Origin: Lysinibacillus xylanilyticus
GTDB taxonomy: Bacteria > Bacillota > Bacilli > Bacillales_A > Planococcaceae
Direction: 5' to 3'
NCBI RefSeq assembly: GCF_001708185.1
Contig: NZ_MDDN01000004.1
Span: 62,001 to 126,000, forward strand
DNA length: 64,000 nucleotides
The position numbers and the translations under genes are program-made. Position 1 is the stretch's first letter, and each line of letters begins with the position of its first letter. Of this stretch, positions 1 through 10,062 are shown piece by piece. The notes below the pieces were generated by a model. That model was not told the origin of the DNA. It worked only from the letters and a program-made list of their open reading frames with translations, and did not search any database.

Positions 1-2
1 TA

Positions 3-155
3 TTAACAATCCTATGTTTTTTCTTAACACTTATTGGAATGAAAGATGTTAACAATATAACGTCTATGATTAGAAGCTTAATCTCAATCGTTATCACATT
101 GCTTCTAGCTAGCATCATATCCTTTATATTATTTTTTGGAAGCTTGTTCAATTAG
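3..155 (+). CDS. membrane protein, C-terminal end (partial)
   Basis: An open frame runs in from the left edge and stops with TAG at 153-155. The visible 50 residues are strongly hydrophobic and contain two predicted membrane segments, ending in FFGSLFN. The start lies outside the window, so the family cannot be named. No terminator is obvious before the next gene at 271. Confidence 0.5.
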   Translation, partial: LTILCFFLTLIGMKDVNNITSMIRSLISIVITLLLASIISFILFFGSLFN

Positions 156-270
156 CGGTACTATGTGAAGATCGGCATTGCCTTTATACGAATTTAGTTA
201 GGATTTATCTTATGTACATTGACGAACATGTGTTCCTTTTGTTAAAATATTAAAAAAGGAGGAAATTTTT

Positions 271-747
271 ATGCAAAAAACTAACACCATTGAATTAGTA
301 CATTTCTCAGAAGACTTTGTGGATGTTTTGAATGACTTTGAACTTCCGGAAGAACAATGTCAATTTACTGCCCTTCCAAAAGAGATTTCGATCGACATGG
401 TTGGACAGTATCCGATTGTTATTTTGAGCGATAATGTACCTGTAGGATTTTTTGTCCTGCACGCAACAGAAAGAGTAAAAGAGTACACTAGCAATCCAAA
501 TGCTATGCTGCTAACGGCATTATCTATTGATCATAAACAGCAAGGCAACGGCTATGCTAAAAAAGGGATGCTGGCATTATCTGAATTTATTAAGAAAGTA
601 TTTAAAGAATGTAATGAAGTGGTTTTAGTGGTCAACCATAAAAATATTCCCGCTCAAAATTTATATTTAAAAGTTGGCTTTGTCGATAACGGGGAAAGAA
701 GAATGGGACCTATTGGCGAGCAAATTGTTATGAACCTAAACTTCTAA
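271..747 (+). CDS. GNAT family N-acetyltransferase
   Basis: A 158-residue single-domain GNAT protein, predicted to transfer an acetyl group from acetyl-CoA to an unknown amine. The acetyl-CoA-binding motif A is seen around residues 82-105 (LSIDHKQQGNGYAKKG), followed by the NIPAQNLYLKVGF segment typical of motif B. A strong ribosome-binding site (AAAGGAGG) sits upstream of the ATG. It is monocistronic, ending in a hairpin terminator at 757-790. The substrate cannot be told from sequence. Confidence 0.85.
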   Translation: MQKTNTIELVHFSEDFVDVLNDFELPEEQCQFTALPKEISIDMVGQYPIVILSDNVPVGFFVLHATERVKEYTSNPNAMLLTALSIDHKQQGNGYAKKGMLALSEFIKKVFKECNEVVLVVNHKNIPAQNLYLKVGFVDNGERRMGPIGEQIVMNLNF

Positions 748-756
748 TAGATTTTC

Positions 757-790
757 AAAAATCACTCGTCATGACATGAGTGATTTTTTT
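757..790 (+). terminator. Rho-independent terminator of the GNAT gene
   Basis: The inverted repeat AAAATCACTC / GAGTGATTTT is followed by a run of T, about 10 bases after the stop codon of the acetyltransferase gene. Confidence 0.85.
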
Positions 791-964
791 CTGTTTGCCC
801 CTTACTGACGGGCATCAGGATATAAGGAATTTGAACCTACACATATGATTGTCATTGCTGATATATTGTTTTGATAATCAGCTATTTAAAGAAGAAAATG
901 TCAATGACATGTGTATGGATTACATACTCTTTTGAATGTTTTAATTGAATTATTCCACTTCATT

Positions 965-998
965 TCAAACCTTTAAGTTCTTTCTAATAGTTTACATA
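965..998. repeat. 34-bp direct repeat, copy 1
   Basis: This 34-bp sequence (TCAAACCTTTAAGTTCTTTC plus 14 more bases) recurs without a mismatch and in the same orientation at 8374-8407. The two copies bracket the whole agr and ABC-transporter block. It could be a recombination scar of an inserted segment or a pair of regulatory sites. The rest of 791-1065 shows no gene. Confidence 0.8.
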
Positions 999-1065
999 CT
1001 ATCGAGTTGTTGCGCATGCCAGGCGCACAAAAAATAGACATCCACAGAAAATGGTGAATGTCTAA

Positions 1066-1773
1066 TTATTTTAAACCCTTTATAAGTCGTGCAGAGGCAA
1101 AGCAAGTTTCGCCATTTTTGAAATATACAACTCGTTCCTTGTGGTCTACAAATTCAATGTTTTGTCGATTCACAATAAAAGCCTTATGACATTGATACAT
1201 CGATACATGTGCTTCCTTAAAATCCTTTAAGCGACCATAAAACTCAATATGCTCATTTTCCAAATGTAAAATAATTTTATGTAATGTGGGGGATGCTGCA
1301 AAAAAATAAATATCCTGAATAGCAATATTTCTCGTGTAACCATTGGCTCTAATTTGAATCTGTGAAGGTGCTTGTTGTTGACCAATTTGAAGATACTTTT
1401 CATATGCAACTTTTAGTGTTGTTAATACTTTTTGCTGTAACATACCTGTGTGATCCTTAATAATAAAATCTAACGCAGCAATTTTATACATAAACGTTAA
1501 ATAGGTCATTTCGGCATGTGTTGTGACAAATATAATATTGCACAATGGGTCACGTTTACGAATCATATCACCTAACATAAGCCCTGTCATTTCATGGTTC
1601 AAATCGATATCCAAAAAATAACAATCTGCTTTTTCATATGCAATGACCTCATTAGGGTTTGTGGTCGTGAGTACAATTTCAATCCCATTTCCCTCCATCA
1701 AGGCATAGTTCTCAATGGTTTTTTTTATATGCTCTAACTGAACAACATTATCTTCACAAATAATCACTTTCAT
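1066..1773 (-). CDS. agrA: AgrA-type response regulator (receiver + LytTR)
   Basis: A 235-residue cytoplasmic response regulator. The N-terminal receiver (residues 1-125) has the acidic DN pair near residue 8 and the phospho-acceptor Asp in ADCYFLDIDL near residue 55. The C-terminal LytTR DNA-binding domain (about 140-235) contains the MYQCHKAFIVNRQNIE segment seen in AgrA/ComE-like regulators. The ATG follows the agrC stop by two bases, with GAGGAGAGGG inside the agrC end as ribosome-binding site, so the two are co-translated. It is the expected partner of the AgrC kinase and would activate peptide-signal target promoters. Confidence 0.88.
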   Translation of the reverse strand: MKVIICEDNVVQLEHIKKTIENYALMEGNGIEIVLTTTNPNEVIAYEKADCYFLDIDLNHEMTGLMLGDMIRKRDPLCNIIFVTTHAEMTYLTFMYKIAALDFIIKDHTGMLQQKVLTTLKVAYEKYLQIGQQQAPSQIQIRANGYTRNIAIQDIYFFAASPTLHKIILHLENEHIEFYGRLKDFKEAHVSMYQCHKAFIVNRQNIEFVDHKERVVYFKNGETCFASARLIKGLK

Positions 1774-1775
1774 AT

Positions 1776-3083
1776 TTACACCCTCTCCTCATCAATAAAC
1801 AACTCTTGTATAAATAGATTGCCATTAATTTTTGTATTCAATCGAAGTTTTGGAGAAGCGTCCACCATTTGGCGTAAAATAGATAAACCCAGACCTCGCT
1901 CCTCTCCTTTTGTCGAGAAGCCTTCTTTAAAAATTTCATGCACTTTTAACTCATGACTTTGATTGGATGAAAATGTATTCACACATGCAATTAACACAAC
2001 ACCATCCATTCGAATAAAGGCTAATCGAATCCAAGGTTCGGTAGCATTCTTACTGGCTTCAAGTGCATTATCCAATAGTATTCCACACATACGATTTAAT
2101 TGAATCTCATCCAATGCTATTCTGTCGATATCTTCAACAATCTCAACGTGCATTGGTACGTGAAGAGTCTGCGCTTGGATAAGTTTTGTTGTTAATAGTC
2201 CTTTTAAACTGGCTATATGTAAACAATTAAGCATCGAGAAAGCCATTTCATGCGCTTGCTCATTCTCTTCTGTTTGTAAAATATGTCGATAAAAATAGGT
2301 TTCTAATTCCGAGTAATTTTTAGAATCTATAAAATGACGCATTGATGTTAAAATATTCATATAATCATGTTTAAATTTACGCATATCACGATTGATATCC
2401 TCAAGCGACTCCACATACGAATTAAATTCTTTCAATTGCATTTCCTTTTGTTTAATATGTATGTTCTTAATAACTAAGTAAACAAAGAAACCAATAATAA
2501 TGATAAAGAGCATCAAATAAATCACAAAAAAGAATACATTATGTTGGACACTTTTGATGAACGATAGATCATCCATCAACACAATATCGGTATACATAAA
2601 GACAATCGTCATAAGTAACAGAGGAATCATTGCAGGTATAATATATTGCTCAAACATATACCATCCTGCAAAATAACTAAATAACCTTTTGTAGACAATC
2701 ACCAAAATAAATAAGATACTCATCGAAACAACGAGTTGTACCAATGGAGAAGTGATGATAGCCTCCATGCCATTCGATAAATGATACACGACAAGCGAAG
2801 AAATATGGTCTGCCATAACAGCTAAAACTATCGTAAACAGTACGTGGACGATATTCCGCCATCGCTTTGTTTGCTGATAGATGAGGAAACTTACCACTAA
2901 TATGACATACGCCACAGCATAGACACCTATAAAAGCAAACAACACTACTGGTGGTGCTACTATCAATAAAGAAACCTTCAAAACCAAATTTTTTGTTATT
3001 GTAATTTTGCTAAAATATAACGGTAAAATACTTAATACCAAAAATTGATAAGTAATTAAGGATAAATAGGATATACTCCACAT
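1776..3083 (-). CDS. agrC: AgrC-type sensor histidine kinase
   Basis: A 435-residue membrane kinase of the HPK10 class. Six to seven hydrophobic segments fill residues 1-215 and form the presumed peptide-signal receptor. The cytoplasmic part has the H-box FKHDYMNILTSM (His near residue 240), the N-box GILLDNALEAS and the glycine-rich GLGLSIL motif. HPK10 kinases sense cyclic autoinducing peptides and phosphorylate a LytTR regulator, which here is the next gene. It starts 55 bases after agrD ends. All catalytic motifs look intact. Confidence 0.88.
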   Translation of the reverse strand: MWSISYLSLITYQFLVLSILPLYFSKITITKNLVLKVSLLIVAPPVVLFAFIGVYAVAYVILVVSFLIYQQTKRWRNIVHVLFTIVLAVMADHISSLVVYHLSNGMEAIITSPLVQLVVSMSILFILVIVYKRLFSYFAGWYMFEQYIIPAMIPLLLMTIVFMYTDIVLMDDLSFIKSVQHNVFFFVIYLMLFIIIIGFFVYLVIKNIHIKQKEMQLKEFNSYVESLEDINRDMRKFKHDYMNILTSMRHFIDSKNYSELETYFYRHILQTEENEQAHEMAFSMLNCLHIASLKGLLTTKLIQAQTLHVPMHVEIVEDIDRIALDEIQLNRMCGILLDNALEASKNATEPWIRLAFIRMDGVVLIACVNTFSSNQSHELKVHEIFKEGFSTKGEERGLGLSILRQMVDASPKLRLNTKINGNLFIQELFIDEERV

Positions 3084-3138
3084 ACGAATAACAAAATCCC
3101 CCTAAAGCAACATCTACTTATTACCTATTTTAGAATAT

Positions 3139-3291
3139 TTATAGCAATTTTTCAAATTTATTAAAATTCAATTCTTGTGGCAACTCCTCTTCTCTTATAG
3201 CACCCCAACACATATAAACAGAGCCAAAGTCAGCTAATTTAATAAGTAAGTCACATAAACTTTCAACCACTTTGTCAATAATAAATTTCAT
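3139..3291 (-). CDS. agrD: AgrD-like autoinducing-peptide precursor
   Basis: This 50-codon gene lies between agrB and agrC. The protein has an amphipathic N-terminal part (residues 1-22), a core SVYMCWGAI with Cys28, and an acidic C-terminal recognition segment REEELPQELNF. In AgrD proteins Cys28 and the four following residues form the thiolactone ring, and AgrB cuts after the last ring residue. By that rule the ring is C-W-G-A-I, cut before Arg33. The start ATG overlaps the agrB stop in the sequence TGATG and follows an AGGAGG site, so translation is coupled. The mature peptide and its N-terminal trimming are predictions. Confidence 0.88.
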   Translation of the reverse strand: MKFIIDKVVESLCDLLIKLADFGSVYMCWGAIREEELPQELNFNKFEKLL

Positions 3292-3855
3292 CAATGATAT
3301 CCTCCTAATTTTGCAATAACCACTAAAACAACCGCCTTCAAAGCGCCCGCTACGAAAAATACGCTTATAGATGTTGGAAAAATAACGAGCAGTACGCCCA
3401 ACACAATAAGTCTGCTATACAATTTTTTAAACAATAATGTTCGATGAGCTTCGCCTCGTACTTTTGTTTTTTTAGAACTCACTGGACCAATAAACAACAA
3501 GATGACAGCTCCTAGCAAAAATGCTCCCCCAACAACGAGTGAAGTGATAGGTAATGCTACAGCTAAGCCATGTGATGAACGGGAATGAAATGCTACTAAC
3601 AACAAGACACGTTCTAAATGATGAACAATGCGCACCATATGCTACTTGACGCACCAGTAAAAATCCAGTTTGAACCAGTAACATTTTCCAAAATAAACCG
3701 AACGCTATAGCTATACAGTAAATAACCAAAAATTTTTTCAACTCGCTTGTAACAACACGAAATCCATATACTAATTTAATTTTATCTACCTGTGTTAATG
3801 GTCTTCTATGTTCAAAATAATCTACTAGCATTTCCTCTTTTGCAGTAAATTCCAA
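3291..3855 (-). pseudogene. agrB: AgrB-like peptide-processing protease, frameshifted
   Basis: Frame 1 starts at a TTG (3855) behind GAGGAGGT and encodes an AgrB N-terminal half with RQVAYGAHCSSFRTC. Its His76 and Cys83 match the spacing of the AgrB catalytic His/Cys pair. Hydrophobic AgrB-like sequence (GLAVALPITS, FIGPVSSKKTKV) then continues in the +1 frame and ends in TGATG at the agrD start. Going from one frame to the other needs the removal of one base (or addition of two) in about 3560-3610. Full length would be about 188 residues, normal for AgrB. It may be a true lesion or a sequencing error. Confidence 0.8.
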
Positions 3856-3930
3856 ATTATTACCTCCTCGATAACCAGTATAAAATATCCAGTAAACAAA
3901 TAGTAAAACAATACATAAGAGGTATATTTA

Positions 3931-4139
3931 TGGCTCATCACCAAAAGTTGTGGATGACATTTGTTAAAACATATACTATGTAAATAAGTTGATTGGAGTG
4001 GAGGCTGGGTGACTCCTTGGGGATCAGCGTCACAGATGAGACCCTGGAGCGAGCAACGCGAGTGAAGCGGCTCATCGGACGCCCCCAGGAAAGCGCCCAG
4101 TCGGAACGGAAATCAACCACACGTTTTGGTGATGAACCA
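3931..4139 (+). repeat. dispersed palindromic repeat, copy A
   Basis: This 209-bp element has terminal inverted repeats (TGGCTCATCACCAAAA at the left, TTTTGGTGATGAACCA at the right) and inner GTTGATT/AATCAAC arms. The GC-rich middle contains GCGAGCAACGCGAGTGAAGC. The same unit recurs at 31599-31843 (opposite strand) and 56137-56405, with shorter relatives at 16046, 22745 and 61031. The apparent reading frame inside it is not a gene. Confidence 0.88.
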
Positions 4140-4191
4140 TATTTATATAGTTAAATGCTCATTTTCAATCTTCCCCCTTACATAAACGTTC

Positions 4192-4231
4192 AAAAAAAAG
4201 AACGTAAGCGTAAAACACCACTTAACGTTCC
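4192..4231 (-). terminator. terminator of the ABC/LuxR-like operon
   Basis: Read on the minus strand, GAACGTTAAG pairs with CTTACGTTC and is followed by eight T. It lies directly after the stop codon at 4233. Confidence 0.8.
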
Positions 4232-4232
4232 C

Positions 4233-4829
4233 TTAAATAAGTTTTTCCGTATATGCCTTATATACTGCTTCTAAATAATGAGATGTTCCAAAATATTCAT
4301 TAATATGCCGAATCGCTTGCTCTACCTCTATATTTGTGAATTTTTGCGAGTTGCAGGTATAGTCAATAGAGTGCCCCTTTGCCAATTCCGTGAGCACTTT
4401 CATTTCTAACATATTCAATTCTCCAACTCGTCTTATGTCAACTATTTCTATTGAGTCTCCTTCAATGATATGAACTAATTGTTCTATCGTCATACTTTTA
4501 TTTATTACCATACAATTCGAGATATTACTTGTGTAGTAATGAAGCTCTCCAATATTTTCATCTGTCATAAAAATAATTTGGCATTTCATTGTTTCGAGAT
4601 TTTTTAAATATGGTATATAGTGAACAAAATGCTTATAAGATGTGTCAATTAACACAACATCATATTTTTTATTGGCATTTCCCCTTATGACAATCTCACT
4701 CGGCAAGTTAATGGTATCAATTGCCCAAGATGGTCTATACATAGTAAACATATTTTTTAAAAGCTCTTGAATAAGCGTGTAATTTGAATGTACTAAGATA
4801 TACATTATTCTATTATCTGACACGAACAT
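4233..4829 (-). CDS. atypical response-regulator-like protein with LuxR-like C-terminus
   Basis: This protein of about 198 residues starts at ATG 4829, three bases past the permease stop and behind CGGAGTG. The N-terminal part has a receiver-like fold (YDVVLIDTSYKHF with a candidate Asp), but the usual acidic pair and conserved Lys are not clear. The C-terminal part (LNMLEMKVLTELAKGHS ... SHYLEAVYKAY) resembles a degenerate LuxR/NarL helix-turn-helix. It is probably a phosphorylation-independent regulator made with the ABC transporter. Its target is unknown. Confidence 0.6.
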   Translation of the reverse strand: MFVSDNRIMYILVHSNYTLIQELLKNMFTMYRPSWAIDTINLPSEIVIRGNANKKYDVVLIDTSYKHFVHYIPYLKNLETMKCQIIFMTDENIGELHYYTSNISNCMVINKSMTIEQLVHIIEGDSIEIVDIRRVGELNMLEMKVLTELAKGHSIDYTCNSQKFTNIEVEQAIRHINEYFGTSHYLEAVYKAYTEKLI

Positions 4830-4831
4830 TT

Positions 4832-7213
4832 CTAAATAACACTCCGTTTTACAAATCGAGCAATATATAGACGACAACATACTAAAATAATCATCGCTGT
4901 ACCTATACCTGAACTAAATATAAACAAGAAATCCCATTCTATTGGCCCGCCTGCATCAATTTGCATGATTAACTTGGTTAAAAACATACCACATGTTAAA
5001 CCAAGTAATAAGCCGATAGTGACAATAAAGAGAACTTCAGACCAAATAACCTGTTTTAATTCTTTTGGGGAAAGCCCGATTAAACGTTGTGTATTGTATT
5101 GGTCTTTCCTTTTAAAGATAATATGAACAATTGTTTGCACTAGACCAGTACAACTCGCTACTACTAAAGCAGTCAAAACGACCATAAACATTGCCCATCG
5201 TTGATAAAACCATTCTGAGGCTTGCTCTAAAAGAACAGCTCGCTCCACAATTTTTAACGTTGGCCAATCACGAATCACCTGTTGGAGATCTTCTAATGTT
5301 GTGCCATTATCTAAAGTTAGATGGATTTTATCAATGGTTACAACATCTTTAATCAAAGGGGAATTCCAGTCAACAAAAAGGTGTTTATATTTGTTTTCTG
5401 TTGGAACGATTCCAGTAATTCTCAAACGGATGGCTTTTTCATTCGACTTTCTGTCAAAGTAATAGCCTTCTAAAACATCTCCTATTTTTAAACCATACTT
5501 ATCAGCTGCATCATCTGTAATTTCAACTCTATCGGCTCCACCAAAATCTTTCGCAAAATAATTCAGATTAACACCATTATTAGTGAGAAAAGAACTACCC
5601 TTACTATCTAATTGAATTTCTTTTATTGAGATTTTTTTTCGCAATAACTCTATATCATTATACGAAATATTCTCAAAATAAGGATTATCAATCGCTACTT
5701 CATACGGATAGGTTTTTTCAATCATTGTTTCCTCGGATTGAACAATAGATTTCAAAAATGTATCATTAAACGTAATAATCATAATCAAAATCGCTAATAT
5801 ACAAACAACAGGAAAATAGCTATTTAAATTAGGAATGAATTGAATTTTTACATAGTGTGCTTTGTTTCCTAAATAGCGATGAATCCAGGAAGAGCATTTG
5901 TTCAACGTGTATACCATCACATATGGCAATAAAAAGAATAGACAACCTATGATACATACACTTCCAGTAAAAATTAAAATAATCGACTGAATTGCATCAT
6001 TTTGCATAATACCTTGTACAAGAATGAGTAATGACATCACACCAACTATAAAAGTAAGTACGGTCTTCCATTTCGTCCAATGATACGATTTAAACTCATA
6101 ATTTCTTTTCAATGCTAAAGGTAATATTTTAGTTACCCTCGCTACTTGAACGAACACAAACATGTAGAGTAAGAAATAAATAGCAAGTAAAATTGCTGAA
6201 AAATAGACAACAGGAATGTTAAAATGGGCTTGCGGTAAGCCGACCATCTCAACTAAAGATGGGACAATGAATTTTAGCAACAAAAGGCTACTGATTGCTC
6301 CTGCCCCTATACCTATTAGTAATATGATAGTCGATTGATAGTTGACAATCTTTTTTAGTTGCCCTGTCTTTGCTCCCATTGTTCTTAAAACGAAAAATTG
6401 GACTTGTAAACGACTAAACAATAATGAAAAAGTAGACTTCAATAATAGACCACTAATAATGATAATACTAACCACTAACATGATGATGAAAACGAGTAAG
6501 GAAATTAAATTTGCTTGTACCCAGTCCGTTTCTTTCGTTATATCAACACGTATATTTTGGAAAAGTTGATGTAATACAGTAGCTGTCTGCTCCACATCCG
6601 TTGTTTTAATCATTACAAACAAGCCCTCTACATCCGATGGAATACTACTTACACTTTTCAAAGAATCAATGTCCATATAGAGAATGGGCGCATCTTCTCC
6701 ATATTCATTAGGAGATAGCACTTCTTTTATTAGAAACTGCTTACCATTTACCACGATTGAATCTGCAACAGATTTATTTAAAGTTTCTGATAAAGAATGT
6801 GAAATAATAACTTCATTATCTTTCGGTATGTCGTTCAAATGGTAAAATCCTTTTGTTAAATGCCCATTCGTAACACCTAATGTATAGGCTCCTTCAATCT
6901 TATCTATAGATGTAAATTGTAGTAAAATCGGTTCCACAAGCTCGACTTCTTCTAAAGTTTTAATCTGATTAAAACTTTCTTTCGTAATCCATTGACTAGA
7001 TTCTTGACTAGATGAAAGGTTATAACCAGCAGAAATATCCACATCCCCATACAAGTTACGAATATTGTCTTCCATTTCTGTTCGTGCATTTTCAACATAG
7101 ACCAACATTGTTGTAATTAAACAAACAGCGAGTGCTACAACTTGAATGGCAATGATTACTTGTATTTTAGCAGCCCTACAAAGTTTCCAAGCAATATTCT
7201 TTAAATCATACAT
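4832..7213 (-). CDS. ABC transporter permease, FtsX/MacB-like
   Basis: A membrane protein of about 793 residues with two FtsX-like domains. A first membrane helix (about 10-32) is followed by a large extracytoplasmic domain, a three-helix block (about 240-370), further helices, a second extracellular domain (about 490-650) and a final three-helix block ending in RLYIARFVKRSVI. Start 7213 is chosen because AGAGGAGC lies just upstream, and the gene overlaps the ATPase gene by 8 bases. FtsX-type permeases with such domains usually export peptides or give resistance to antimicrobial peptides. The nearby agr system makes a peptide-related role possible but unproven. Confidence 0.8.
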   Translation of the reverse strand: MYDLKNIAWKLCRAAKIQVIIAIQVVALAVCLITTMLVYVENARTEMEDNIRNLYGDVDISAGYNLSSSQESSQWITKESFNQIKTLEEVELVEPILLQFTSIDKIEGAYTLGVTNGHLTKGFYHLNDIPKDNEVIISHSLSETLNKSVADSIVVNGKQFLIKEVLSPNEYGEDAPILYMDIDSLKSVSSIPSDVEGLFVMIKTTDVEQTATVLHQLFQNIRVDITKETDWVQANLISLLVFIIMLVVSIIIISGLLLKSTFSLLFSRLQVQFFVLRTMGAKTGQLKKIVNYQSTIILLIGIGAGAISSLLLLKFIVPSLVEMVGLPQAHFNIPVVYFSAILLAIYFLLYMFVFVQVARVTKILPLALKRNYEFKSYHWTKWKTVLTFIVGVMSLLILVQGIMQNDAIQSIILIFTGSVCIIGCLFFLLPYVMVYTLNKCSSWIHRYLGNKAHYVKIQFIPNLNSYFPVVCILAILIMIITFNDTFLKSIVQSEETMIEKTYPYEVAIDNPYFENISYNDIELLRKKISIKEIQLDSKGSSFLTNNGVNLNYFAKDFGGADRVEITDDAADKYGLKIGDVLEGYYFDRKSNEKAIRLRITGIVPTENKYKHLFVDWNSPLIKDVVTIDKIHLTLDNGTTLEDLQQVIRDWPTLKIVERAVLLEQASEWFYQRWAMFMVVLTALVVASCTGLVQTIVHIIFKRKDQYNTQRLIGLSPKELKQVIWSEVLFIVTIGLLLGLTCGMFLTKLIMQIDAGGPIEWDFLFIFSSGIGTAMIILVCCRLYIARFVKRSVI

Positions 7214-8006
7214 CGAGATAGCTCCTCTGTATGTTTTTAAATTTGTCAAAAATCATCGTTAAATTATCACTATTCTCTTGGTTAATATAATTATCTACTA
7301 ATTTCCCTTTATGAAAGAATAGTACACGATCAGCATAAGTCGATACATGTGGATCATGTGTTACCAATATAATTGTTTGATTCGTTAGATTTTTCAATTG
7401 AACAAGTGTTGTTAGAATATCGTTTGTCGTATTGACATCTAGTGCCCCTGTTGGCTCGTCTGCCAGTAATAATAGCGGATTGGCAATAATCGCTCTTGCT
7501 ATAGCCACTCGTTGTTTTTGCCCACCAGATAATTCATGTGGTTTCTTGACAGCTAAATCACTAATTGACAATTTTGTTAATACATCTTTCACCTTTTGCG
7601 CAATTTTTTTAGAGTCCTCATCTAGCAAAATTAATGGTAGTGCCACATTATCTGATACCGTCAATTCATCTAACAAGTTGAAATTTTGAAATATAAAGCC
7701 TATATTTCGTTTTCTAAATTCCGATGCTATCGGTTCTTGAAATTGCTCAATCATCGGTACACCTTGAAAAATTAATTCCCCATGTGTAGGTTTGTCTAAA
7801 GCAGCTAAAATATTAAGTAATGTACTTTTCCCTGAACCACTCGTACCCATTATTGCAACGATTTCATTTTGATAAATTTCACAATTGATTGTATCTAGTG
7901 CTTGTATTGTAAAATCTTTCGACTTAAATTCTTTTGACACATTTTTCATTACTACTAATGAGGTTTTTTTCACATTTTGTGTCTCATCTAGTTTTAACTG
8001 TTTCAT
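7206..8006 (-). CDS. ABC transporter ATP-binding protein, LolD/MacB class
   Basis: A 266-residue nucleotide-binding subunit. It has Walker A GTSGSGKSTLLNIL, signature LSGGQKQRVAIARAI and Walker B LLLADEPTGALD, the class-typical form for MacB/LolD-type partners of FtsX permeases. Start 8006 is preferred because AAAAGGAGC precedes it. It powers the permease encoded immediately downstream with an 8-base overlap. These are the first two genes of a three-gene operon. Confidence 0.88.
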   Translation of the reverse strand: MKQLKLDETQNVKKTSLVVMKNVSKEFKSKDFTIQALDTINCEIYQNEIVAIMGTSGSGKSTLLNILAALDKPTHGELIFQGVPMIEQFQEPIASEFRKRNIGFIFQNFNLLDELTVSDNVALPLILLDEDSKKIAQKVKDVLTKLSISDLAVKKPHELSGGQKQRVAIARAIIANPLLLLADEPTGALDVNTTNDILTTLVQLKNLTNQTIILVTHDPHVSTYADRVLFFHKGKLVDNYINQENSDNLTMIFDKFKNIQRSYLDV

Positions 8007-8273
8007 GGAAATGCTCCTTTTGCTCATACCATTTGGATTGGGCTTGATGCATACGATAATATAATACTTTATTATTTATCGAAAGTACCAATTTCTCCCA
8101 TTTTCCCTTTATCCAAGATAAATAAGTATCTAAGCCAACATTATGGACTGAAAATTTACCACTTCCTACAATTTTTAATACTGTTCTTGATTACTACTAT
8201 ACAAAGTCATAAGCCCTAACAGTCTCTTTACTCTTAACATCTTCTTTCTTCCACATAACCGTATTTTTTTCAC

Positions 8274-8315
8274 TTACTCCATTACGTTTATGATGACATA
8301 AACGTAATGGAGTAA
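8274..8315. repeat. perfect inverted repeat, 19-bp arms
   Basis: The arms TTACTCCATTACGTTTATG and CATAAACGTAATGGAGTAA are exact complements separated by ATGA. No T-run follows on either strand, so it is not a standard terminator. Its place about 270 bp upstream of the ABC operon suggests an operator, an RNA hairpin or a mobile-element remnant. Confidence 0.85.
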
Positions 8316-8373
8316 AATGATAACTCTTGTGCTTATTGATTTCATCCACATCAAGTCCATCAACCTATACATA

Positions 8374-8407
8374 TCAAACCTTTAAGTTCTTTCTAATAGT
8401 TTACATA
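8374..8407. repeat. 34-bp direct repeat, copy 2
   Basis: Identical over 34 bases to 965-998 and in the same orientation. The two copies enclose about 7.4 kb holding agr and the ABC operon. Confidence 0.8.
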
Positions 8408-8726
8408 ATATTTTTATTCAATGAATAAAGTGTTCCTCTATTTGGTAAATTCTCATAGTAGCTCTTCTTGCTTCCATACTGCAAGATGTTTAAACTTATG
8501 GGGAACATTGCTGTCCCCCACCGTCATCAGCAGCTATACCTTCTACTAACCCCATAAGTTCAATATGTTCCACAAACTAATAAACGAATTCCAATAATAG
8601 GAATCCGTTCTATATCAATTTTTATACTAACTCCAACAATGGCTATGTAGGAAGTTCCTATAAGAAGCACGCAATTCATCATACGATAGAACTTTCATTT
8701 TGTTTATATCCAAAGTCAATCCTTCT

Positions 8727-9140
8727 TTACTCAATACTGTTTAATCTTTCAAGCCATTTCAATATGCAGCCACTCTTAAAGAAATCTAATAACGCACCTT
8801 CGCAAAAGCGCTCAGCTCTAACAGCACCCATAATAAGTGCAAGCACACACTGTGCATTCAAATTTGAAACGTCCGCATTCTTCATAGAATCCGTATCCCA
8901 CTCAAGATCGTTATCTTTGAGAATATCTCCATAGCGGGTAAGCTCCATATTTTTATTACTTTCTTCAAAGGTGTAAACATCGTTGATGAAGTTATGCACC
9001 ATTTCGGAATAGCCTACAAAAGGCATATGTATCGGATGTTCTGACGTTCCATCGTTTTCTTTATCAATAATCCATTCACCAATGCTCGCCGTCTGGATCA
9101 TAGGTATGTATTTTACCAAAATATCGAATTTACTCATCAT
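8727..9140 (-). CDS. DUF6508-like protein
   Basis: A 137-residue soluble protein with no membrane segment or signal. The C-terminal stretch ALIMGAVRAERFCEGALLDF followed by FKSGCILKWLERL resembles the DUF6508 family, whose function is unknown. A GAGGACGATG-type site precedes the ATG. It stands alone between gene-free regions, which suggests accessory DNA. Confidence 0.6.
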   Translation of the reverse strand: MMSKFDILVKYIPMIQTASIGEWIIDKENDGTSEHPIHMPFVGYSEMVHNFINDVYTFEESNKNMELTRYGDILKDNDLEWDTDSMKNADVSNLNAQCVLALIMGAVRAERFCEGALLDFFKSGCILKWLERLNSIE

Positions 9141-9442
9141 CGTCCTCCTCAGTATCGTCTATGCCTAATAACTTCTTGAACAACACTCCACTAGATTCTA
9201 GTTTGAAATTGAGTCTTTTTTAGTTTTTCTAGAGTTTTCTACTATTCCGCAATAGAGGTTGCTTTTTGATTTGCAACCTCTATTCTTTGAGTGGATTCTA
9301 TTAGTTCTATTTCTAGTAAATTCTCCAATATATAGCCTTCTTCTTTTTAGTCTTAAAAAGTTGTTGAAACATATCGCAAATCCCTGGTAAATGCCAAATC
9401 TAAAGAAACCGTCTTGACGTAAAGCCCCCGTTAATATAATAC
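9141..9442. other. 302-bp gene-free stretch
   Basis: AT-rich sequence with no supported gene. A hairpin-like pair (GAGGTTGC ... GCAACCTC) near 9256-9282 may be a terminator for DUF6508-side transcription. Confidence 0.35.
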
Positions 9443-9841
9443 TTAAACTTCCTCTTTTCTCATAATAGCTTTTATCCGTGCTTGTTCTTCAGTCTTATCT
9501 AAGTATTCAAAAAACCCAAGACGATTTCCCCAAGGGTCAGTAAATGTTCCCCATTTAGCTGAAACTTCTGGTCTTGAGTAAATTTCAAAGTTATCAATGT
9601 TAAGTTCTTTTATTAGTCTTTCTCTTTCCGCTTCGATATTTGTAACCCCTAAACGTAAAGGACCATTTCCTTCAGTAAGATTACCCTCTGCTACTTGTAA
9701 CCAACAACCAGGTATGAGTTCCCACTCTACAAAACCATCATGTGGTATGAAATCTGGTTTCTTATCTAACAGTGTTTCATACCACTTATACCCTTCTTCG
9801 ATATTAGATACTCGTACTTGAGTAGTCATTTCAAAAATCAT
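9443..9841 (-). CDS. VOC (glyoxalase/bleomycin-resistance) family protein
   Basis: A 132-residue protein with the paired beta-alpha-beta-beta-beta layout of the vicinal-oxygen-chelate superfamily. MTTQVRVSNIEEGYKWYETL opens the first module and FTDPWGNRLGFFEYL closes the second. These proteins are metal-dependent isomerases or dioxygenases, or sequester drugs. The substrate is not readable here. GGAGGGGG precedes the ATG. Confidence 0.8.
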   Translation of the reverse strand: MIFEMTTQVRVSNIEEGYKWYETLLDKKPDFIPHDGFVEWELIPGCWLQVAEGNLTEGNGPLRLGVTNIEAERERLIKELNIDNFEIYSRPEVSAKWGTFTDPWGNRLGFFEYLDKTEEQARIKAIMRKEEV

Positions 9842-10062
9842 TTTACCCCCTCCAGATTATGGTATATATATTTTTCAATACAGTTGATTAAAAACCCTTT
9901 ATTAAACGTAATTTTGGATTATAACTTTTTTCTTTGGTTCGACAACTTTAACTGTATCAGTAAATGTGATAAGAAGGTTTTAAAAATGTTGCGTATTTAG
10001 TTAGACCAGTTTTGTATATCCCCTATTCCCATAGGGTCGTTTTCTGCGATTTCAAACTATCT

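Follow-up and report, generated by a model that had tools for sequence, protein, structure and literature searches.

The agr genes of Staphylococcus aureus stand in the order B-D-C-A, and the same order is found in the Lysinibacillus window analysed here, by which we mean the whole stretch of 64,000 nucleotides. The S. aureus AgrD also shares E36, P38, E40 and L41 with the AgrD of this window. For AgrD-I, the precursor of AIP-I, an excerpt of PMC10196373 describes a cysteine at position 28, a cut after residue 32 and E34, which is matched by the predicted anatomy of our propeptide. The agr operon of Listeria monocytogenes resembles that of S. aureus, as stated in a passage of PMC4916163, and according to part of PMC11297923 its signal has a five-residue ring like the one predicted here. 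Furthermore, agr and cyclic-lactone genes were placed in Brevibacillus strains in a section of PMC9867215, and lasso genes were reported in L. irui in a section of PMC11166776. The main text of the latter paper contains neither "agrD" nor "autoinducer", and PMC5100339 does not contain "agr" as a whole word. Within the open-licence PMC literature we found no experimental agr work on Lysinibacillus and no paper on Planococcaceae with AgrD and AgrB; the accessible portions of this literature, those of PMC9020862, PMC5454873 and PMC9867215 included, yielded no description of an agr-linked lasso cluster.

The window genome belongs to Lysinibacillus as judged by its relatives, and the AgrC of L. mangiferihumi M-GX18 is 88% identical to its own. 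The agrBDCA locus lies on the minus strand and consists of the following features:

1066 to 1773, minus strand: agrA, response regulator with a LytTR domain, 235 aa, intact.
1776 to 3083, minus strand: agrC, sensor histidine kinase, 435 aa, intact.
3139 to 3291, minus strand: agrD, 50-aa propeptide with the ATG at 3291 and the stop codon ending at 3139.
3291 to 3638, minus strand: agrB C-terminal frame, 115-aa open frame whose last 91 residues match intact AgrB.
3472 to 3855, minus strand: agrB N-terminal frame, 127-aa open frame of which about the first 97 residues are colinear with intact relatives.

Both AgrC and AgrA match solved domains of S. aureus. By sequence, the kinase half of AgrC aligns with PDB 6e52, the S. 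aureus AgrC kinase module (E 5e-45), and AgrA with PDB 3bs1, the S. aureus AgrA (E 7e-25). AgrC is a GHKL histidine kinase with HATPase_c_5 over its cut-off, and its best full-length model is the staphylococcal AgrC NF046015 (243.9 bits, under the cut-off of 500). The best model for AgrA is NF046049 (233.4 bits, under the cut-off of 400), with LytTR and Response_reg over their cut-offs. However, the locus differs from that of S. aureus in that the ring reads CWGAI, the residue following it is Arg instead of Asp33, agrB is broken and the whole is left over from a lasso-peptide island.

The agrD product, MKFIIDKVVESLCDLLIKLADFGSVYMCWGAIREEELPQELNFNKFEKLL, is read from a minus-strand open frame of 50 residues. 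Its ATG at 3291 begins on the final base of the C-terminal agrB frame, and a gap of 55 nt separates agrD from agrC. The original prediction had named 3139-3291 as agrD, and this is confirmed by its position between agrB and agrC, the motif, a leave-out profile and conservation. Translation puts the cysteine at residue 28 and REEELPQEL at residues 33-41, as had been stated. Residues 2-22 form an N-terminal stretch that is possibly amphipathic (hydrophobic moment 0.42, equalled by 731 of 20,000 shuffles; 493 to 1645 of 20,000 in relatives), followed by the predicted ring C28-W-G-A-I32 and by the acidic tail R33EEELPQEL, which AgrB would recognise. The predicted five-residue ring CWGAI is supported, because across the family no gaps fall between Cys and the tail residues E and P and because the ring residues vary among the three nearest relatives; closure would be by a thiolactone from Cys28 to residue 32. 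The core differs from that of L. monocytogenes, and the conserved VYM before the cysteine suggests an N-terminal tail on the signal peptide, for which any length is putative.

Among 409 six-frame window ORFs of 30-75 aa the pattern C-x5-E-x3-P was found solely in agrD, while a looser ring/tail pattern occurred in four of them; the stricter motif form arose in 96 of 100,000 shuffles of the residues of AgrD itself. A leave-out profile of 25 other family AgrDs (24 distinct, none of the window's type) recovered the agrD frame with E = 1e-5, and no further frame among 919 reached E < 0.5; a second significant line in this search was the same agrD frame in the decoy set. The AgrD set was taken from 29 AgrB loci (L032-L060) scanned by the ring pattern, with a candidate at 27 and none at L041 and L043, and its start codons were picked by eye. 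The AgrB places of the window genome (G000) and of G013:C83 were looked at, and G254:C16, G059:C8 and weak AgrB places were left out. In an alignment of 28 distinct family AgrDs, C28, P38 and L41 were invariant and E34 was present in at least 90%, where the likeness among members, such as the invariance of C and P, is partly a product of selection by the ring pattern. In the search of AgrD family profiles, which had been proposed as a check, TIGR04223 (NCBIfam) gave the window AgrD 13.1 bits at a cut-off of 19, and there was no Pfam match, PF05931 (staphylococcal AgrD) included. At E<=0.1, TIGR04223 matched 28 of the 28 AgrDs of the set and PF05931 matched 12. Therefore, it is plausible that agrD was missed by annotation, given its score below the TIGR04223 cut-off and the lack of a Pfam match.

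Strong hits to this agrD type, all at E 3.4e-21 or better, were obtained in four of 32 genus genomes, namely the window genome and the relatives labelled G013, G010 and G026, in all of which frame, position and motif are conserved. Seven more of the 32 gave weak hits, two of which (G012 and G017) are AgrDs of another type. The rings read CWGAI in the window and G013, CWGAL in G010 and CWNFS in G026, flanked in all four by SVYM before the ring and by EEELPQEL one residue past it; residue 33 is Arg in the window AgrD versus Gly in the three nearest relatives. The suggestion of a new signal type is better put as one allele, also present in L. mangiferihumi, within a small agr type of Lysinibacillus that comprises at least three different rings. 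A search for the core strings CWGAI, YMCWG, VYMCW and CWNFS matched no on-topic title among open-licence PMC full texts. In the staphylococcal agr groups, ring and sensor vary together. Here, the start of the agrC sensor diverges most in G026, the genome with the most different ring: DNA identity over window positions 2853-3152, which include the gap before agrC, was 0.67 for G026, 0.86 for G010 and 0.83 for G013, and of AgrC residues 1-205, 152 were identical to the window in G026, 168 in G010 and 167 in G013. The locus of L. mangiferihumi M-GX18 (L016, matching G013) has the core CWGAI and the gene order in common with the window and has lost its lasso genes too. It differs from the window in its neighbour genes, in a split orf215 and in the way agrB is broken, which in G013 is an in-frame TAG together with loss of the conserved Arg.

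In G010 and G026 the agr genes form one end of a lasso-peptide island of about 14 kb, counted from agrA to the lasso upstream region. The window retains these further parts of it:

4233 to 4880, minus strand: orf215, 215 aa, conserved in the island and response-regulator-like by eye only.
4832 to 7249, minus strand: ABC transporter permease of FtsX/MacB type, 805 aa from the earliest start.
7206 to 8027, minus strand: ABC transporter ATPase, 273 aa.
8000 to 8177, minus strand: 3'-end remnant of the lasso exporter, overlapping the ATPase start, in two stretches separated by an internal deletion that falls between 8115 and 8116.
8168 to 8404, minus strand: remnant of the lasso-operon upstream region, which in G010 lies upstream of the PqqD-type gene.

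The permease reached 58.8 bits for FtsX and 58.5 bits for MacB_PCD, both over the cut-offs, and the ATPase 124.2 bits for ABC_tran, its best NCBIfam model being TIGR03608 (215 bits, under its cut-off). No Pfam or NCBIfam family matched orf215 over cut-off, and its structure predicted without an alignment was too poor to use (mean pLDDT 46.6). This frame adjoins agr in G010 and G026 (omega to the window 0.34 and 0.42) and is split in G013.

Beyond the ABC ATPase, G010 and G026 carry a 617-aa ABC exporter, a thioredoxin-like gene, two MauE-like genes and a gene for a 122-140-aa protein, followed by the lasso core genes in the order small precursor, Asn-synthase-type cyclase, B2 protease and PqqD-type protein (B1). 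Lasso clusters of Firmicutes comprise A, B1, B2, C and an exporter, and G010 and G026 resemble them in having a PqqD-type B1, B2, cyclase, precursor and ABC exporter together in one island. For G010, B2 scored 56.4 bits with NF033537 (cut-off 33), and PqqD, Transglut_core3 and Asn_synthase were over their Pfam cut-offs, as was MauE for one of the two MauE-like proteins. Its cyclase matched best the lasso cyclase NF033535 (186 bits, under the cut-off of 525), and both the NCBIfam lasso PqqD model and the thioredoxin match stayed under cut-off. G026 has a cyclase of 87% identity and a B2 of 53.3 bits, and its other lasso genes were assigned by order and by eye.

The precursors of G010 and G026 show the YxxP leader and the G1...E8 core start of Firmicutes lasso precursors. 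In contrast to those clusters, however, their presumed cores are nearly 60 residues long with a conserved Cys near the end, and MauE-like genes, thioredoxin-like genes and agrBDCA lie in the same island. Six precursors (from G010, G026, G012, G136 and G014) have in common Y-x2-P, I at -2 and G1, G4, G6 and E8 of the presumed core, together with long Cys-bearing tails. Besides, lasso-type precursors with a YxxP leader, invariant G1/E8 and a presumed core that contains Cys and is unusually long, at about 40-60 residues, were noted at L067 3313-3570 (minus), L068 16581-16820 (plus), L106 14600-14824 (plus), L108 8689-8907 (minus) and L109 5232-5426 and 5491-5682 (both minus), in clusters that hold MauE-like or thioredoxin-like frames. 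Possibly these represent a group of long lasso peptides with disulfides in Lysinibacillus and its kin.

Aligned with G010, the window runs continuously to 8115, continues as an exporter scrap to 8177 and then jumps to the PqqD upstream region at 8168-8404. The two stretches of exporter match L064 11378-11501 and 11737-11801 (blastn), and the upstream-region remnant is 85% identical to L067 6062-6301. This alignment indicates a deletion of the lasso genes from the window that left the ABC transporter, agrDCA and scraps, and neither a B2 (E<=0.001) nor a cyclase (E<=1e-30) was found in the window genome (G000). In G013 the deletion is similar, with a right end near-identical to that of the window and a different left end, and G019 holds scraps of the island only, without an AgrB hit. 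Upstream of the lasso operon start in relatives, a perfect inverted repeat of 19 nt around a 4-nt loop was seen, which lies at 8274-8315 of the window and is nearly kept in G010, G013 and G019; it may be an operator, an attenuator or a terminator. Rfam gave no match at the gathering threshold within window positions 1-9900, RNAIII-like RNA included.

The island is framed by direct repeats, and a further repeat lies inside it:

961 to 1002, plus strand: left 42-nt direct repeat.
8370 to 8411, plus strand: right 42-nt direct repeat, 95% identical to the left copy.
3932 to 4138, no strand assigned: MITE-like repeat element between agrB and orf215.

The empty site was found in four of the four relatives examined (G025, G018, G031 and G023, the best left-flank matches of 25 other genomes with some match), where the flanks are joined and hold one more diverged 42-nt copy, with gaps in G025 and G031. 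We also considered the 42-nt repeat as an AgrA-binding or promoter repeat and rejected this, since the island-less relatives carry one copy at the joined flanks and G010, G013 and G026 contain no match with up to three mismatches. At the island ends of G010 no comparable repeat was found and at those of G026 only a 9-nt match, and by eye no integrase or recombinase was seen among the island frames. The left neighbours of the island, judged by eye, are the same in G010 and G013 and different in G026 and in the window; therefore, the island has moved between places in the genome. Within 1053-8115 the window looks like a mosaic: from 4861 on, its blocks resemble G010 most closely (0.91-0.97 versus 0.82-0.90 to G013), and over 1053-3752 seven of nine blocks stand slightly closer to G013, a pattern that suggests recombination within the island.

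The MITE-like element is bounded by an 8-bp direct duplication, ATATTTAT, at 3924-3931 and 4139-4146. It is missing at the same place in G010, G013 and G026 and has 67 matching pieces genome-wide, itself included, which identifies it at the level of the alignment as an insertion upstream of agrB. Taken together, the loss of the lasso genes and the entry of this element into the agrB upstream region mark a decaying locus.

The agrB gene is broken as well. Together, the two overlapping frames make up the 187-residue AgrB of G010 and G026, in which agrB is intact, and the reading frame is broken between the halves. The N-terminal frame scored 64.2 bits with PF04647, over the cut-off, and the C-terminal frame 16.7 bits, under it; residues 25-115 of the latter are 90% identical to G010. 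This split gene is the sole AgrB hit of the window genome, which has intact AgrC and AgrA and no intact AgrB.

Based on these comparisons, we propose with a probability of roughly 70% that agr quorum sensing once controlled a mobile lasso-peptide cluster and that the window is a decayed remnant of this arrangement, which perhaps keeps immunity and listening. The identity of agrBDCA, the variability of the ring, the lasso genes of the relatives, the deletion, the agrB break, the repeat insertion and the empty site can be read from the DNA itself. In the intact form, as in G010 and G026, AgrB would cut AgrD after residue 32 and close the thiolactone between Cys28 and residue 32, while trimming of the N-terminal part of AgrD would fall to another protease. 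AgrC, bound by the released cyclic peptide, would then phosphorylate AgrA, which in turn would activate the agr operon itself and, most probably, also the lasso-peptide operon at the island's opposite end. Situated between these two operons, the FtsX-type ABC transporter may protect the producer or help in export. In the window, the intact AgrC, AgrA and ABC transporter may persist as listening and immunity functions. The original prediction had also implied that this strain makes the signal, which is not supported, given a sole AgrB hit split into two frames with a repeat element just upstream; the damage to the neighbouring agrB had gone unmentioned in it. With the lasso genes deleted, agrB frame-broken and the repeat element upstream of it, the signal is probably no longer made in the window strain; the predicted autoinducing peptide holds for the anatomy of the gene and probably not for the present chemistry of the strain.

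It could also be that the window strain is a selected non-producer, in which AgrC/AgrA and the ABC transporter are maintained to sense the peptide of neighbours and to induce immunity. We regard this as a possibility to be kept in mind, though on the unlikely side. The window and G013 are both lasso-deleted with a broken agrB, and in both the frames of agrC, agrA, ATPase and permease have stayed open; between the two, omega is 0.27 for agrC, 0.14 for agrA, 0.18 for the ATPase and 0.31 for the permease. These values would fit either recent breakage or continued use, and omega averages over the time preceding the losses. Moreover, G019 retains no more than its scraps of the island, and G013 has a second AgrB of another type and without a stop; therefore, G013 is not altogether signal-mute.

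Whether the agr module and the lasso cluster are mere neighbours, with agr regulating something else as in Listeria and staphylococci, was judged from 261 genomes of the family (an order-level sample gave the same 261), with AgrB at E<=1e-6 and B2 over its cut-off. B2 occurred in 11 genomes, AgrB in 30 and both in three (G010, G026 and G012), so that 27 of the 30 AgrB genomes lack a B2 and eight of the 11 B2 genomes lack an AgrB by these thresholds, which speaks for mere neighbourhood. Since the co-occurrence itself is not above chance (hypergeometric P = 0.12), the case for a link rests on adjacency: agr and B2 lie within 10 kb in three of the three genomes having both, at a chance of such closeness of 0.1-0.5% per genome. 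As G010 and G026 share a single island, two independent and different arrangements are left. In the second one, in G012, agrBDCA with the ring CRAFA lies 2.1 kb from the lasso B2 and divergent from the lasso genes. On this balance we consider mere neighbourhood unlikely. Neither partner needs the other, however, because the lasso clusters of G136 and G014 occur in genomes without an AgrB hit and G017, whose agr is of the G012 type, lacks both cyclase and B2. By eye, the lasso cluster of G012 (L106 7194-18911) is crowded with transposase-like frames, which split the cyclase and separate the redox genes from one another, and a similar gene pair lies beside the agr of G017 (L107 11726-13686, plus) and beside the lasso cluster of G136 (L108 15062-17244, plus).

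A working agr in the window strain would require that the agrB break is an assembly or sequencing error, which it could be in a draft of 48 contigs, and that the CWGAI thiolactone controls the ABC transporter or genes elsewhere. This reading would be in line with intact agrD, agrC and agrA of low omega, with the intact agrB of G010 and G026 and with the motif R-x4-G-x-H-x6-C, whose presumed catalytic residues are kept in the N-terminal agrB frame. In S. aureus AgrB, R70, G75, H77 and C84, which have the same spacing, are needed for activity according to an extract of PMC10196373. The agrB omegas for the N-terminal piece over 95 codons (0.37 to G010, 0.08 to G026 and 0.45 to G013) likewise give no sign of long decay. 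The longest homopolymer within 40 nt around the break is only 3, though, which is not a typical error site, and the lasso deletion and the element upstream of agrB mark the locus as decaying. The lasso-less G013 also carries damage in agrB, its stop and its lost Arg. The C-terminal piece carries a lysine-rich stretch, and it is unlikely that the product of the first frame alone makes the peptide; a sequence search retrieved no solved AgrB structure (a single hit, E 0.99). We hold a functional system in this strain to be unlikely. Finally, a chance origin of the agrD frame, for which its score under the NCBIfam cut-off and the missing Pfam match might speak, can be dismissed as the frame is the sole profile hit among 919 and is refuted by conservation of frame, position and motif in three relatives, with omega of 0.19-0.27 to them over 46-48 codons.

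Returning to the proposed decayed remnant of an agr-controlled lasso island, the agrD of the window is, as a precursor of an autoinducing peptide, one more allele of a well-known kind. Its value comes from the context, which points to a lasso peptide as the likely target of an agr system, and this in a genus on which our searches showed no experimental agr work. The linkage of agr and lasso genes, although lost from the window, is of more interest than a new signal core, and the two intact relatives G010 and G026 allow this link to be tested. Taken further, and with considerable doubt, one might speculate that agr controls an unusually long, cysteine-rich lasso peptide in a mobile island and that lasso losses repeatedly leave immune, sensing and signal-mute remnants, the window included, in which AgrC/AgrA and the FtsX-type transporter are kept for eavesdropping and immunity. 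The natural ring variants CWGAI, CWGAL and CWNFS come paired with diverging AgrC sensors, and the natural loss variants separate signal production from reception and immunity.
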